52,962 bases of DNA from a virus. This document shows, in pieces, positions 17,754 to 25,826 of the stretch. The notes under the pieces are model-generated. The model saw nothing but the letters and a program-made list of their open reading frames with translations, was not told the DNA's origin and searched no databases. The stretch is taken from IMG/VR virus record IMGVR_UViG_3300009154_000076, positions 1 to 52,962 of that record; one strand, given 5' to 3'. The position numbers and the translations under genes are program-made. How positions within the stretch are numbered: position 1 is the stretch's first letter; the number at the start of each line of letters is the position of its first letter.

Positions 17754-18473
17754 ATGGATATTACACAAATTCTAGCGGGCCTGACTATGGACAATAGGGA
17801 AAAGCCAGTGATACTTTATTTTCGCGGAGATGTTATAACTAGCCCACCCGCCAGTATTATATCTTACATAGAGCAGCATGCCAATTGTTCTATTATTTTC
17901 TGTGATTCTTGGGATGAACTATCCAAAGGAATATCATTTGTTCCAGACCTAATTTCATTTCACTCCGATGTCATCAAACGAGAAAACGTAACTACTTACG
18001 AATTTGTTTCCATGGTCACTACCATGGCAAAATATATTTTACCAGAAGATAATAAGCCAAAGTTTGCTGCAGTTATTGAACCAAATTGCCGATATGAATT
18101 TATCAAAGAATTACAGAGCACAGGTATATCCGGAGTGATACCTTCTTCATCTGGCTTTGGTGTCAATCATACCATCGACGCTATTTCAGCTATTTTGAAT
18201 TCGAACAAATATTGGCCAAAAGAAATTGTTAATAAACTACATGTCAAGAAAGCTCAAAAGAATGATGACAATTCACAAATAAAATTAACTGATCGTCAAG
18301 CACAAATTTTAGATTTAGTGTGTCATCGTGGTTTGAGTAACAAACATATTGCCAGAGCATTACAAATTTCAGAGAGCACAGTCAAAGTTCACATGAGCGC
18401 AATATTAAAAGAATATGGTGTAAAAAATCGCACTCAATTGGCATTGGCAGCAATGTCGTCCTTATCTGCATAG
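17754..18473 (+). CDS. NarL/LuxR-type transcriptional regulator with degenerate receiver domain
   Basis: A 239-residue protein. Residues about 177-235 are a clear LuxR-type helix-turn-helix: LTDRQAQILDLVCHRGLSNKHIARALQISESTVKVHMSAILKEYGV, with the family's Glu/Gln-to-Leu start, SNKxIA turn and SxxTVKxH recognition helix. Residues 15-150 follow the alternating pattern of a CheY-like receiver but the acidic pocket and the conserved Lys near the end (GVIPSSSG replaces GYLxK) are missing, so phosphorylation is unlikely. It probably binds DNA constitutively or senses another signal. A strong terminator follows. It could control phage or host promoters. Confidence 0.8.
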   Translation: MDITQILAGLTMDNREKPVILYFRGDVITSPPASIISYIEQHANCSIIFCDSWDELSKGISFVPDLISFHSDVIKRENVTTYEFVSMVTTMAKYILPEDNKPKFAAVIEPNCRYEFIKELQSTGISGVIPSSSGFGVNHTIDAISAILNSNKYWPKEIVNKLHVKKAQKNDDNSQIKLTDRQAQILDLVCHRGLSNKHIARALQISESTVKVHMSAILKEYGVKNRTQLALAAMSSLSA

Positions 18474-18783: not shown

Positions 18784-19344
18784 ATGGCTGATTTTATGAA
18801 TTTAACAACCGACCCTTTCTTTTCATTGAGTGGTCAAATCAATGACGTGAAAACTAAAGTTGCAGATAGTATTTTTGAAAACTATAAGTTACAAGTTGCA
18901 CAAACCAATGATGTCAACAACCGTGCTATGCAAGTTGCTTTGCATGATTCTTCAGCATTGGCTGATCTAAAACAAGCTGTTGCCGATGGCACATTGCAGA
19001 CCATGTTGGCTGCTTCTCGTACCGATTCCGCAATTGGTGCTACAGCAATGCAAACACAACGCGAGATCATGAATCAGGGCGAAATGACCCGTGGATTGAT
19101 CAATGCATTGAACACACAAAACTTGAATACTGCGTTGATCAACACCAACACAGCATTGACAGGTCTTGGTGGTCAGTATGCTGGTCTTGGTTTGGCTTAT
19201 GGCGGTGCAGTTGCAGCATATCAAAGTGCTAATACAGTAAGTGCAGTTAACGCACTAAACAGTGCTATTGCTAGCCAAGGTGTTATTAACACCGGAACAA
19301 TGTCTGGAACAACTCAGACTGCAAATCCAACAACTATTCGCTAA
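18784..19344 (+). CDS. Small virion-type protein, paralogue A
   Basis: A 186-residue protein, mostly helical, with Ala/Gln/Asn-rich repeats and without Cys. It begins with a TTDPFFSLSGQINDVKTKVAD segment and shares roughly 70% of residues with the next gene. It ends in a Gly/Ala region (YAGLGLAYGGAVAAYQ) and a tail NTGTMSGTTQTANPTTIR, a motif repeated in two neighbours. Composition and place at the head of a fibre locus, with a strong leader, suggest an abundant structural or tail-associated protein; this is inference. Confidence 0.6.
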   Translation: MADFMNLTTDPFFSLSGQINDVKTKVADSIFENYKLQVAQTNDVNNRAMQVALHDSSALADLKQAVADGTLQTMLAASRTDSAIGATAMQTQREIMNQGEMTRGLINALNTQNLNTALINTNTALTGLGGQYAGLGLAYGGAVAAYQSANTVSAVNALNSAIASQGVINTGTMSGTTQTANPTTIR

Positions 19345-19361
19345 TAGTTGATGGTGTAGTG

Positions 19362-19394
19362 ATACTGGGTCATGGAGACCCCCTGACCCAGTAT
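19362..19394 (+). terminator. Intercistronic hairpin between the two paralogues
   Basis: A perfect 11-bp stem (19362-19372 with 19384-19394) followed by TTTAATTT. It lies between the paralogues' stop and start and likely attenuates or stabilises the mRNA. The ribosome site TAGGAG follows at once. Confidence 0.7.
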
Positions 19395-19414
19395 TTTAAT
19401 TTAGGAGAATAAAA

Positions 19415-19984
19415 ATGGATGGTTCAACATCAACATATACTATCACAACCGACCCTTTCTTTTCATTGAGTAATGAGATCAATAATGTGAAAACTAAGGT
19501 TGCAGATAGTGTTTTTGAAAATTATAAGCTACAGGTTGCACAAGCCGCCGATATTAATAACCGCGCCATGCAAGTTGCTCTGCATGATGCTAGTGAATTG
19601 GCTGCACTAAAACAAGCTGCTAGTAATAGCACTTTGCAAACAATGCTGGCTTCTGCTCGTACTGATTCTGCAATTGGTGCAACTGCTATGCAAACACAGC
19701 GTGAAGTCATGCATCAGGGTGAAAAAGATCGTGGTTTGGCCAATTTCTTGAACACACAAAACTTGAATACTGCGTTGATCAATATCAACACAGCAATCAC
19801 TGGCTTTGGTGGACAATACGCTGGTCTTGGTTTGGCTTATGGTGGTGCGGTTGCTGCAGTACAGAGTGCAGACTCAGTAAATGCATTAAATGCAGTAAAC
19901 AGTGCTATATCTGGCCAAGGAATTGTAAACACTGGAGTAATGACTACAAGTACTCAGACATCTACACCAGTCAGCATTGGTTAA
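19415..19984 (+). CDS. Small virion-type protein, paralogue B
   Basis: A 189-residue duplicate of the 18784 gene: the FENYKLQVAQ, MQVALHDAS, TLQTMLASARTDSAIGATAMQTQRE and LNTQNLNTALIN segments are nearly the same, while the N-terminal 12 residues and the spacer before the tail differ. The C-terminal tail is NTGVMTTSTQTSTPVSIG, a relaxed version of its paralogue's. A gene duplication followed by moderate divergence, in tandem and on the same strand, is evident. Probably a homologous or mixed-oligomer structural component. Confidence 0.6.
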   Translation: MDGSTSTYTITTDPFFSLSNEINNVKTKVADSVFENYKLQVAQAADINNRAMQVALHDASELAALKQAASNSTLQTMLASARTDSAIGATAMQTQREVMHQGEKDRGLANFLNTQNLNTALININTAITGFGGQYAGLGLAYGGAVAAVQSADSVNALNAVNSAISGQGIVNTGVMTTSTQTSTPVSIG

Positions 19985-20001
19985 CTTTTAAGGAAAACAT
20001 T

Positions 20002-20172
20002 ATGTTTAGATCCGGTATAGGTTTTGGAGGTGGGTTTTATCCTAGGGGATATCTTGGAGCAGGCATAGGCTACCCCTATTACGGTCTCTTGGCTTATCCA
20101 TACTTCGGCGCAATCGGTTACCCATATTATGGTGGGTGTGGATATTGTGGCGGCGGTGGTTATTATTATTAA
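20002..20172 (+). CDS. Gly/Tyr-rich small protein, 56 aa
   Basis: A 56-residue ORF behind an AAGGAAAAC ribosome site. Gly and Tyr make up more than half of it, in runs like GYPYYGLL, AYPYFGAIGYPYYGG and CGYCGGGG, ending YYY. Such composition is found in adhesive, disordered or phase-separating proteins and in some structural surface proteins. It lies between the paralogue pair and a related Gly/Tyr gene. A strong ribosome site and the in-frame match of composition to the 20234 gene support coding. Confidence 0.6.
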   Translation: MFRSGIGFGGGFYPRGYLGAGIGYPYYGLLAYPYFGAIGYPYYGGCGYCGGGGYYY

Positions 20173-20184
20173 TATCTAGAAACA

Positions 20185-20220
20185 ATGAGCCAACTCAAAA
20201 GGTTGGCTCATCTGCATTTT
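20185..20220 (+). terminator. Intercistronic hairpin, 10-bp stem
   Basis: ATGAGCCAAC (20185-20194) pairs perfectly with GTTGGCTCAT (20202-20211) around a 7-nt loop, followed by CTGCATTTT. It separates two Gly/Tyr-rich ORFs. Its form is terminator-like; as with the hairpin at 19362 it may leave partial read-through. Confidence 0.7.
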
Positions 20221-20233
20221 ACAGGAGAATATT

Positions 20234-20434
20234 ATGTACTCAGGTTATTATTACCCATATTATAGAAGTTTTGGTTACGGTTATCCAGTGTTTGGTCAGC
20301 CATATGGTTATTTCCCATCCAATTATGGATACAGTAGCAACATAATCGGCAGTGCCATTGCCAATCAAGGCATTGTTAACACTGGAACCATGACGGGAAC
20401 AACTCAAGTTGCCACCCCAACGGTAATTTGGTGA
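20234..20434 (+). CDS. Gly/Tyr-rich protein with the shared C-terminal tail, 66 aa
   Basis: A 66-residue protein. Residues 1-34 are Gly/Tyr/Pro-rich (YYYPYYRSFGYGYPVFG) like the 20002 ORF. Residues 36-66 (IIGSAIANQGIVNTGTMTGTTQ and so on) match the C-terminal tails of both paralogues at 18784 and 19415. It looks like a fusion of a Gly/Tyr segment to the tail module. ACAGGAG precedes the ATG. Likely a virion component that uses the tail for assembly or for binding a common partner. Confidence 0.65.
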   Translation: MYSGYYYPYYRSFGYGYPVFGQPYGYFPSNYGYSSNIIGSAIANQGIVNTGTMTGTTQVATPTVIW

Positions 20435-20439
20435 TCAAA

Positions 20440-21141
20440 ATGTACAAAAAAATAACACACAACATCGTAGAAGAACATCATGGAATCCATCCAATGCTGG
20501 CCAACAATTCTGTTGCGGGGGCATTTGTGCCCGGTCAGTTAGAACCACTGCCCAATGTTGTAATTAATGAACAAACTTTGACATTTCGTATGGATTCTAG
20601 AACATTATGGACCAGATATAGTTTGGGCATGATCAACTATTCCGTGAGTAGTTTCGGAAACCTAAGTAGCACCGATTCGGTAGAAAGAAATCTATATAAA
20701 TCAGCAAGTAATATAGGAGATTACTTTATTCCATATTATGGAATAGCTGCCGGATCTAAAATTGGCGGATTACTCATCGCCATAGCCACCAATGGAACCA
20801 AAGTCGTAGAGGCTATTGGAGCTAACAGAGATATCGCAGTATTCCAAGACATTTGGATTAAACAAATTCATGAGTTATCGGTATATCTTAATGAACTTAA
20901 TCCAGGGCAATATCCTGTTCCTCTATTGGAAGAAATGTTAATTAATCTTACCAAGTTTTGGACTGATGATTTTACTGCTAGATTTAACAAAGATTTTGCA
21001 GCAGATGCCATTGCGTTGGACAATATATTAAAAGTGGCAGTGAGTGGAATACCAGATCATGCCAACAAAGGATATCAAAGTTTAGCTGACATTCTCAGTA
21101 GAGGAATTATCGCGCAGTACCCATTATCTTTTGTGGAGTAA
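20440..21141 (+). CDS. Fibre-locus protein, 233 aa, paralogue of the 25125 gene
   Basis: A 233-residue protein beginning MYKKITHNIVEEHHGIHPM; its relative at 25125 begins MYKKVTHHIIEEHFDHPM and has exactly the same length. The middle is helical, and the last stretch (RGIIAQYPLSFVE) parallels that of the relative. I set the start at ATG 20440 because it aligns with that relative; an earlier TTG at 20428 overlaps the preceding gene. No enzyme motif. It may be a fibre-associated or chaperone-like protein, since both copies sit beside collagen-like genes. Confidence 0.6.
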   Translation: MYKKITHNIVEEHHGIHPMLANNSVAGAFVPGQLEPLPNVVINEQTLTFRMDSRTLWTRYSLGMINYSVSSFGNLSSTDSVERNLYKSASNIGDYFIPYYGIAAGSKIGGLLIAIATNGTKVVEAIGANRDIAVFQDIWIKQIHELSVYLNELNPGQYPVPLLEEMLINLTKFWTDDFTARFNKDFAADAIALDNILKVAVSGIPDHANKGYQSLADILSRGIIAQYPLSFVE

Positions 21142-21145
21142 TTCA

Positions 21146-21400
21146 ATGAGTATAATCCGTGTTCAAGACAACAGTGATGATAACAAAGATTTAGAATATA
21201 AGAATCTAGAAGCACATGTAATTCTTTGTAAACAGCGGTATTCTGCGCTAGAGAGTAGGATAGAACGGATTGAAAAAAAGGTGGATGATATCATTGAACA
21301 AGCCAGAGTAAATCGTAGGTTATTGATCAAAGTATCAATTACTATTATGTCAGTGATTATCACCACCGCCGTATCTTTATTATTGAAATATAACGGGTGA
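21146..21400 (+). CDS. Small coiled-coil/tail-anchored membrane protein (XhlA-like layout)
   Basis: An 84-residue protein starting at ATG 21146 behind TGGAGTA. A charged coiled-coil segment (ALESRIERIEKKVDDIIEQARVNRRLL) is followed by one C-terminal membrane span (VSITIMSVIITTAVSLLL). That order, helix then single tail anchor, is the layout of XhlA-type haemolysin/holin helpers of phages. A lysis role is plausible but no endolysin is seen nearby. Confidence 0.5.
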   Translation: MSIIRVQDNSDDNKDLEYKNLEAHVILCKQRYSALESRIERIEKKVDDIIEQARVNRRLLIKVSITIMSVIITTAVSLLLKYNG

Positions 21401-21939: not shown

Positions 21940-23058
21940 ATGTTTAATAATTTGGGATTTTTTTCTCCGCCACGTGCTGTTAGGTATAGATTGCGAGTTT
22001 CCCCTGTAACAACAATTGGGGGCATTGAAAATGAAGTATTTATGGTTGGATCCGGAGCCTCTGGATTCACCGGTAGCGCGGGACCGCAAGGCCCACAGGG
22101 ATTTACTGGTAGTGCTGGTTCAGCCGGTGGATTTACCGGAAGCGTTGGTGCACAAGGCCCACATGGTTATTCAGGGTCGGCTGGGTTCACTGGATCTGCT
22201 GGATTTACGGGATCCATTGGTGCAACTGGTGCACAAGGACCACAAGGATATACTGGTTCGAATGGGTTCACTGGTAGTACTGGATCTACCGGTAGTGTAG
22301 GTGCGCAGGGACCACAGGGACCACAAGGTTATACTGGAAGTATTGGTTTTACCGGTAGTATTGGATTTACTGGATCTATTGGCGCAACTGGTGCACAGGG
22401 ACCACAGGGACCACAGGGACCACAAGGTTATACTGGAAGTATTGGTTTTACCGGATCGGTTGGTGCTCAAGGTCCTCAGGGATCATTGGGATTTACTGGA
22501 TCTGTTGGTGCACAGGGTCCACAAGGTGCCACTGGATTTACTGGTAGTACTGGATTTACCGGAAGTGTAGGTGTACAGGGACCACAAGGTTTTGCTGGAT
22601 CAGTAGGCACACAAGGACCACAAGGTTATACTGGAAGTGTTGGATTTACTGGATCAGTAGGCGCAACTGGTGCACAGGGACCACAAGGTTATACTGGAAG
22701 TGTTGGCGATATTGGATTTACAGGATCAGTTGGATTTACCGGAAGTGCTGGTGGACTAATCGTGCCAGTGACCACTGTCACACAGATTGCACCATATGTT
22801 GCGACTACCAGCGATTATTTTATTGCAATGAACGTCCCCGCTGCTAGTGTAGTCAACCTTCCAGCTGTCCCCGTCGGTAAAGTCTATATAATAAAAGATG
22901 CTGCCGGAAAAGCCGGACCAGTTATTTCCGGTGGATTAAACAATACCATCACGGTTTCCGATGTTACCACTATTGATGGCGCAGCCAGCGCGCTAATCAA
23001 TGTCAACTATGGAAGTTTGACATTGATATTCAATGGCACTGAATGGAATATTGTGTAA
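21940..23058 (+). CDS. Collagen-like tail fibre protein with beta-rich C-terminal domain
   Basis: A 372-residue protein. After a 40-residue N-terminal cap, residues about 43-270 are Gly-X-Y triplets grouped as GFTGSxG and AQGPQG. The last 100 residues (VPVTTVTQIAPYVATTSDYF... to NGTEWNIV) have no triplets and resemble a trimerisation or receptor-binding domain. Fibres of this type trimerise as triple helices. Its TAA overlaps the ATG of the next gene (TAATG). The same end motif (xGTxWNIV) closes the 23628 gene. Confidence 0.75.
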   Translation: MFNNLGFFSPPRAVRYRLRVSPVTTIGGIENEVFMVGSGASGFTGSAGPQGPQGFTGSAGSAGGFTGSVGAQGPHGYSGSAGFTGSAGFTGSIGATGAQGPQGYTGSNGFTGSTGSTGSVGAQGPQGPQGYTGSIGFTGSIGFTGSIGATGAQGPQGPQGPQGYTGSIGFTGSVGAQGPQGSLGFTGSVGAQGPQGATGFTGSTGFTGSVGVQGPQGFAGSVGTQGPQGYTGSVGFTGSVGATGAQGPQGYTGSVGDIGFTGSVGFTGSAGGLIVPVTTVTQIAPYVATTSDYFIAMNVPAASVVNLPAVPVGKVYIIKDAAGKAGPVISGGLNNTITVSDVTTIDGAASALINVNYGSLTLIFNGTEWNIV

Positions 23059-23627: not shown

Positions 23628-24341
23628 ATGGCATACTTAAGTTCACCAGCATCGACAAGTAGTTACGGATTAGTAACAATCGGATCAAATATTGTAGTTG
23701 ATAATCTTGGGGTAATATCATTACCCCAAAGTGTTGCAACCACATCTAGTGTAAGTTTTAGTTCAGTTGGAATAACCAGTGGAGCTCCTTCCACATCATC
23801 TACTACTGGAGCACTGACAGTATCTGGTGGAGTTGGAATTAGTGGAAATATCTATGCTGCCAATGTATATGACAATGGCAATCGTGTAATCACCAGTGTG
23901 ACAGCAGTTGCTGGCACTGGATTAAGTGGTGGAGGAACCATCACTGGATCAACTGGAACAGTTACATTTACTAATACTGGGGTATTGAGTATAACAGCCG
24001 GCACTGGAATAACATTAAACACCAGTACAGGGGTAATTACCATATCTGCAAATGGAACCAACACTGTTAACACCGTTTATGTCACCACCGGTTCTTACAC
24101 TACGCTAACAACTGATGATTATATCGGGGTTAATTATGCCGGAAATTGCACAATTACGTTGACCACCGGCAGCAACGGAATATCCTATCAAATCAAAAAA
24201 GAACGCAGCGATAACGGAAATAAAATTGTTATTCAAGGATCTAGTGGACAAACCATAGATGGCAATCCGTCTTATTCAATGCAGCTAGGATACTCAAGTG
24301 TTAGTTTGGTATTCAGGGGAACCAACTGGAACATTGTCTGA
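23628..24341 (+). CDS. Beta-rich tail fibre protein
   Basis: A 237-residue protein behind AAAGGAG. It has GALTVSGGVGISGNIYAANVYDNGNRV, a repeat common in phage fibre stalks of beta-helix type, followed by GTGLSGGGTITGSTGTVTFTNTGV and GTGITLNTSTGVITIS. The C-terminal 90 residues (VYVTTGSYTTLTTDDYIGVNYAG... GTNWNIV) resemble that of the collagen-like fibre at 21940. Likely another fibre subunit. Confidence 0.6.
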   Translation: MAYLSSPASTSSYGLVTIGSNIVVDNLGVISLPQSVATTSSVSFSSVGITSGAPSTSSTTGALTVSGGVGISGNIYAANVYDNGNRVITSVTAVAGTGLSGGGTITGSTGTVTFTNTGVLSITAGTGITLNTSTGVITISANGTNTVNTVYVTTGSYTTLTTDDYIGVNYAGNCTITLTTGSNGISYQIKKERSDNGNKIVIQGSSGQTIDGNPSYSMQLGYSSVSLVFRGTNWNIV

Positions 24342-25124: not shown

Positions 25125-25826
25125 ATGTATAAAAAAGTAACACATCATATAATCGAAGAACATTTTGATCATCCCATGGCAGCGCACGTCAAGGAAGTCG
25201 TAGATCATGGCCACCATACCACACCAATTCCATATGACCACAAATCAATGTTGATTCCAACATCCCCATCGTCTATTAAACTAACCAGCGATGCTATGCA
25301 TTTGTTTGGTAATTATTATTGGAGATTGCGTAGCTATTTGATCAGTGCATTGGATTCTGGAGAAGATCGCGCTGCGATTGAAAACCATCTTATGACAGAT
25401 ATTACCAATCTGGGCAATGTTGTAAAAACATACTATGGAGATGCTGCAGCTACTTCTTTTGAAAAATATTTAAAAGCCTATACCATGGCAATCATAGACG
25501 TAATCAATGCCATCAAATCTGGTCAATCTGTGACTGATATAACACCAAAAGTATCCACTAGTGTCAATGATTTGGCTAACTTCTTAAATCAAGCTAACCC
25601 TGCTTACTGGCCAGCCAGCACTGTTTCTCATATTTTAAATCAAGAAGTTGATGCTTGGGTTGCACAAGCCAATGACAGAAAGAGAAAAGATTGGATTGCT
25701 GATTTTGCTGCACTAGAAAGAGGCAAAGGCATTTTGATAACGGGGCAACCTGATAAAACGCCAAGTTTTGCTACCACGTTTGCCAATGGCGTAATTCAAC
25801 AGTTCCCAAGTAAATTCATCTCTTGA
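25125..25826 (+). CDS. Fibre-locus protein, 233 aa, paralogue of the 20440 gene
   Basis: A 233-residue protein beginning MYKKVTHHIIEEHFDHPM, homologous to the 20440 product in start, length and C-terminal pattern (FANGVIQQFPSKFIS). It has a His-rich N-terminal stretch (about residues 5-40) and helical middle (YWRLRSYLISALDSGEDRAAIENHLM). The two copies bracket the first collagen-like fibre group. Function unknown; the shared N-terminus may be a docking signal. Confidence 0.6.
   Translation: MYKKVTHHIIEEHFDHPMAAHVKEVVDHGHHTTPIPYDHKSMLIPTSPSSIKLTSDAMHLFGNYYWRLRSYLISALDSGEDRAAIENHLMTDITNLGNVVKTYYGDAAATSFEKYLKAYTMAIIDVINAIKSGQSVTDITPKVSTSVNDLANFLNQANPAYWPASTVSHILNQEVDAWVAQANDRKRKDWIADFAALERGKGILITGQPDKTPSFATTFANGVIQQFPSKFIS

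Follow-up and report, generated by a model that had tools for sequence, protein, structure and literature searches.

The C-terminal tail shared by two otherwise non-homologous proteins, A and Y, of a viral gene cassette is of matched type in the two proteins of each genome, and in natural mosaics the A tail and the Y tail are seen to switch together while flanking an unswitched gene, G. The matched switches, together with DNA comparisons that argue against simple copying of A into Y, indicate that the tail peptide is jointly constrained in A and Y. The DNA analyzed, whose full length is called the window, was a virus record from IMG/VR comprising 52,962 bases. In it, A1 and A2 are paralogues, Y is the small tail-bearing peptide, and G is the tail-less protein between them (Table 1).

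Table 1. Features of the A-G-Y cassette and its immediate neighbours in the window
Feature	Position	Strand	Basis and remarks
LuxR/GerE-type HTH regulator	17754..18473	+	PF00196, E 3e-15; upstream of cassette; orthologue in 13/14 contigs compared
A1, 186 aa: predicted single long helix (residues 11-164) and C-terminal tail	18784..19344	+	ORF, AlphaFold2, 52-member family
A1 tail, SAIASQGVINTGTMSGTTQTANPTTIR	19261..19341	+	tail profile / tail alignment
A1-A2 hairpin (bounds approximate)	19361..19396	+	gap 19345-19414, predicted fold -21.3 kcal/mol
A2, 189 aa, A1 paralogue with tail	19415..19984	+	ORF; paralogue comparison
A2 tail	19901..19981	+	tail alignment
G, 56 aa, Gly/Tyr-rich, without tail; conserved core PRGYLGAGIGYPY	20002..20172	+	19 homologues aligned
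Terminator-like hairpin, G-Y gap	20185..20211	+	predicted fold; same gap has hairpin in 20/20 loci folded
Y, 66 aa: Tyr/Gly/Pro-rich N-terminal half and shared tail	20234..20434	+	ORF; profile comparison with A
Y tail, SAIANQGIVNTGTMTGTTQVATPTVIW	20351..20431	+	Y query search, tail profile
MYKKITH-family protein, next gene after Y, without tail	20440..21141	+	kept in 14/14 contigs compared

The initial annotation had described three products with related C-terminal tails, the first two being paralogues and the third a Gly/Tyr-rich peptide that is otherwise unrelated. All three statements were borne out. The open reading frames at 18784, 19415 and 20234 and their ends were confirmed, with the C-termini NALNSAIASQGVINTGTMSGTTQTANPTTIR (A1), NAVNSAISGQGIVNTGVMTTSTQTSTPVSIG (A2) and NIIGSAIANQGIVNTGTMTGTTQVATPTVIW (Y); A1 and A2 are 73% identical; and residues 1-35 of Y, 71% of which are Tyr, Gly, Phe, Pro or Trp, have no match in A. 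A search of the window with Y as the query returned Y itself and the ends of two larger products (E 3.7e-10 and 3.7e-6). When the A and Y family profiles were compared, 34 columns could be aligned, in the tail region only, with an E value of 6.4e-12, which excludes chance resemblance. The SAI-containing tails are present as the annotation gave them, but the shared part is longer, comprising about 25-31 residues and beginning a few residues upstream of SAI. The motif SAIxxQGxxNTGxM holds in the window but is not fixed, and relatives have variants, including NVIGAGAVGG, SQ for SA, N for Q, and a two-residue insertion, with A and Y always matching. In every intact locus the tail is the extreme C-terminus of both A and Y.

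A search of 2.9 million viral contigs for A identified 41 loci. Of the 40 loci examined, about 36 have the order A (one or two copies)-G-Y, usually followed by a gene of the MYKKITH family; three of the remaining four loci run into a contig end, and the fourth is L033. Neighbouring genes, from the LuxR-type regulator through a collagen-like protein, are common to most of the 14 contigs compared. An early tail alignment was too diverse to serve as a profile for scanning the collection. Scans of the 2.9 million contigs with the tail only and with G only found no contigs beyond those already having the cassette, and the tail, G and Y thus constitute one module, uncharacterized and conserved across otherwise divergent contigs of uncultured bacterial viruses.

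A search for the tail in other phages had been proposed, and in related uncultured-virus contigs the tail is present on A and on the non-homologous Y alike and was found on no other proteins, so that it is not confined to paralogues; Y has it everywhere. A tail-profile scan of 17 contigs matched the A copies and Y, with nothing further of weight (one extra match at E 0.017). The annotation had viewed the tail as an assembly or sorting signal taking different proteins to one site. Its C-terminal position in every intact locus and its matched changes support a functional element common to A and Y, but a general sorting signal has become less likely because only A and Y have the tail in the 17 contigs and because each genome has a tail type of its own instead of one universal type. 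None of A, G, Y and the tail could be assigned to a known family: GenBank phages contained no match to A2 or Y, nor the tail; a search of 84,980 bacterial and archaeal genomes of GTDB detected no A family member at the sensitivity used; Pfam and PHROGs gave no convincing family for A, G or Y; no Pfam model matched more than one of 36 tails up to E 10; and PDB sequences gave no match to the profile of the tail at E values up to 10 and nothing useful for A.

Sequence identity between A and Y tails was 0.62 within loci versus 0.50 between loci (permutation p 5e-5), and the excess persisted when each 80% A-core cluster was reduced to one representative (eight divergent representatives, p about 0.001). 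No within-locus excess would be expected if the tails had evolved independently since one ancient duplication. Three binary tail traits were scored, namely the VIGAGA/TVGAGA type, which has one extra residue; SQ for SA, in some cases with a two-residue insertion; and N for Q. A and Y agree in these traits in all 46 A rows that have a Y partner, and the sub-types match too, A tails with NVIG being paired with Y tails with NVIG and A tails with VTVG with Y tails with NTIG. On a tree of A cores built without the tails, the traits change 5, 2 and 3 times (10 inferred changes), and every change is mirrored in Y; a loose pattern wrongly assigned the insertion to L027, which leaves the combined SQ/insertion trait as it is. 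All seven independent contrasts on well-supported branches point in the same direction; by contrasts alone no single trait reaches p<0.05, and some switch-bearing branches are weakly supported. In partial Mantel tests on 31 loci, the A tail was correlated with the Y tail given the A core, G and the Y N-terminus (r 0.37-0.52, p 5e-4). With all other segments controlled for, the A tail was less strongly correlated with its own core (partial correlation 0.22).

Natural mosaics show these switches. Between L031 and L041, DNA identity is.85 in the A core,.62 in the A tail,.75 in G,.69 in the N-terminal half of Y and.60 in the Y tail, and the corresponding values between L031 and L038 are.70,.82,.53,.54 and.85; L031 resembles L041 outside the tails and L038 in both tails. 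The same pattern is present between L038 and L025 and between L038 and L030. For L031 and L038, the unswitched G between the tails rules out inheritance of the stretch from A tail to Y tail as a single block. Nature has in effect performed a swap experiment several times, with the same change appearing in both proteins although they are non-homologous and the gene between them is unchanged.

Recombination could in principle generate such matching by itself, if the Y tail were a fused copy of the A tail with no co-assembly role and if repeated gene conversion, or the joint exchange of short conserved segments between phages, kept the two alike. Y does resemble a chimera of a Gly/Tyr-rich N-terminus and an A tail, the A-like stretch of Y is longer in L043-L045, and there is a slight within-locus excess of shared codons: at residues identical in A and Y tails of the same genome, 47% of codons agree versus 39% expected from codon use of the locus (z 4.9, for pairs that are non-independent). 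However, the tail DNA of A and Y from the same genome (identity.66) is no closer than that of A and Y from different genomes of the same type (.66), and Y tails are closer to one another (.76); Y tails retain ends of their own in both tail types (IIGSAI..., with Gly before SAI, and PTVIW); conservation within Y is highest in the tail; and both tails switch around the unswitched G. Recombination as the sole explanation is considered quite improbable. The codon match of just 47% and the lack of closer A-Y DNA identity within genomes indicate selection on the peptides rather than recent copying, which does not account for the matching, and simple copying of the A gene into Y is likewise disfavoured by the DNA comparison. 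Some old A-Y gene conversion perhaps occurred besides joint selection.

The favoured reading, in our judgment about as likely as not, is that the tail serves as a short docking element, matched between A and Y, which places both in one assembly. In that case the subunit formed by A would be helical, long and thin, and Y would be a small protein, rich in Gly and aromatic residues, with a tail borrowed from A. The two tails would pack directly against each other where the A helix ends on its C-terminal side, giving a mixed oligomer, and it is because of this packing that A and Y would need the same tail type. Y would thereby be built into the A structure, and its Tyr/Gly-rich half may link to the similar low-complexity protein G. 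Such an assembly might be a fibre or decoration of the virion or another structure made by the phage; if the former, A and Y would presumably be incorporated into the virion at one site. Matched natural tails allow a direct and cheap test of a peptide interaction, and the tails of A and Y, as a candidate pair of matched tags, may be of use in work on protein assembly.

AlphaFold2 modelling of A1 from 52 sequences predicted one 154-residue helix with high pLDDT over most of its length (pTM 0.29), followed by a tail without structure (pLDDT 50-65). The hydrophobic periodicity of A is 3.6-3.67, versus 3.5 for a heptad coil, so that the helix is not a canonical heptad coiled coil. The single-chain model of Y has a pLDDT of 50 throughout and is uninformative, and single-chain modelling thus gives no structural support for packing between tails. 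The first 35 residues of Y and G each consist of about 70% Tyr, Gly, Phe, Pro and Trp; profile comparison gives no support for their common ancestry, and the likeness is one of composition only. A broader version of the docking proposal, which we consider unlikely, is a compatibility code in which an undescribed filament or coat would be formed by A rods, the Tyr/Gly-rich matrix protein G and the adaptor Y, with the tail type deciding which subunits join and the types switching only as a set.

Twelve shared gene families were tested for association with tail type, and only A and Y follow it, with low power since the contigs are fragments that share few genes. This result bears on the alternative that A and Y make no mutual contact but that both tails bind, and co-vary with, one third protein, such as a virion or envelope component, which is a strict form of the "one site" of the initial annotation. 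A shared socket of this kind accounts equally well for matching in two unrelated proteins, and genes for collagen-like and fibre-like proteins adjoin the cassette. None of the other testable families behaves like such a partner, although most of each genome is absent from the contigs, and the neighbouring MYKKITH, 21146 and 21405 families follow tail type weakly or not at all. A third-protein partner is regarded as somewhat unlikely, and direct docking between A and Y is retained as the working proposal.

Short terminal assembly tags are already known in phages. The internal proteins of T4 are diverse and have in common only a targeting sequence, the CTS (PMC3012670). The A/Y tail is similar in being a short terminal peptide on otherwise unrelated phage proteins, and the CTS brings its proteins to one place, as the tail might do for A and Y. 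Whereas the tail stands at the C-terminus of every A and Y, the CTS is N-terminal and is processed by the S77 prohead protease; the tail, moreover, is restricted to two families and switches type in a matched way. By the same analogy, the tail could be a processing or targeting tag recognized by a phage protease, an export factor or a scaffold factor, and two relatives do encode a T4-type gp23, portal and S77 prohead protease. The C-terminal position, the restriction to two families, the variation of type between genomes and the lack of a constant cleavage-like motif across tail types nevertheless make a tag of this kind very unlikely.

In fibritin of T4-like phages, C-terminal foldon modules have undergone modular replacement in evolution (PMC3797505). 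As in fibritin, a small C-terminal element follows a long helical protein (in A, a predicted helix) and is replaced in a modular way, but the foldon, whose fold is known and trimeric, occurs on fibritin alone, whereas the A/Y tail occurs on A and Y together and has no relative among PDB sequences. The PDB and Pfam searches of the tails described above do not place them with foldon or fibritin. By analogy, the tail appears to act like a terminal assembly tag of the CTS kind and recalls the C-terminal modules of fibritin, while belonging to neither.

The A proteins also resemble the R-body Reb proteins (PF11747) in being paralogous, low-charge and predicted helical, in being encoded near a transcription regulator, and in that they could polymerise; they differ in having a conserved tail. 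Diagnostic Reb motifs are QITD, KxxxD/E, NAV and QQ(Q) (PMC13430693). PF11747 matched none of the 52 A family members, and the motifs were found in 0 (QITD), 0 (KxxxD/E), 4 (NAV) and 14 (QQ(Q); QQQ in 1) of the 52, so that membership of A in the Reb family was rejected.

The gp23 capsid protein, gp21 S77 protease and gp20 portal of the T4 type were found in just two relatives, G001 and G008. The window and the other contigs are fragments that do not include them. Their presence in two relatives suggests that the virus group is at least partly T4-like. The T4 late promoter TATAAATA was not enriched.

Several features of the cassette vary among loci. The longer A-like stretch of Y (AVQSANN...SAVSGQRLINTGDM; AVQSANN...QRLINTGDM), found in L043 (5760-6020), L044 (5781-6041) and L045 (5772-6035), occurs where the genome has only one A copy, and Y there looks as though it had acquired the end of a second A gene since lost. 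The VIGAGA/TVGAGA tail type was observed only where the contig stretch has a single A gene (L011, L017, L022, L023, L028, L030, L031 and L038). In the G-Y gap (20173-20233), the hairpin has the loop CTCA[AC]AAGG in many of the 20 loci and is followed by T runs in many, while the stem sequences vary, which is consistent with a conserved terminator-like element. With this hairpin upstream of its gene, Y may be produced at a lower level than A and G.

Other genes in the window were also of interest. A near-constant N-terminus, MYKK[IV]TH.I.EEH, is present on two distant paralogues that are 26% identical (20440-20490 and 25125-25175); we take it to look like a capsid targeting sequence of T4, I-x-E cleavage site included. 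Relatives have up to two or more copies of this family, one of which is just 62 aa long with the rest His-rich (L009, 3333-3521). An 84-aa protein (21146-21400), kept in 12 of 14 contigs, has a coiled-coil-like part and a hydrophobic, membrane-like C-terminal segment and could tie the A-G-Y module to a membrane. Collagen-like and fibre-like proteins (21940-23058 and 23628-24341), here and in relatives, have a similar C-terminal domain (...YGSLTLIFNGTEWNIV), another shared C-terminal module. A papain-family cysteine protease gene (PF00112, 25833-26597) adjoins that of a UV-endonuclease, UvdE (PF03851, 26643-27671).
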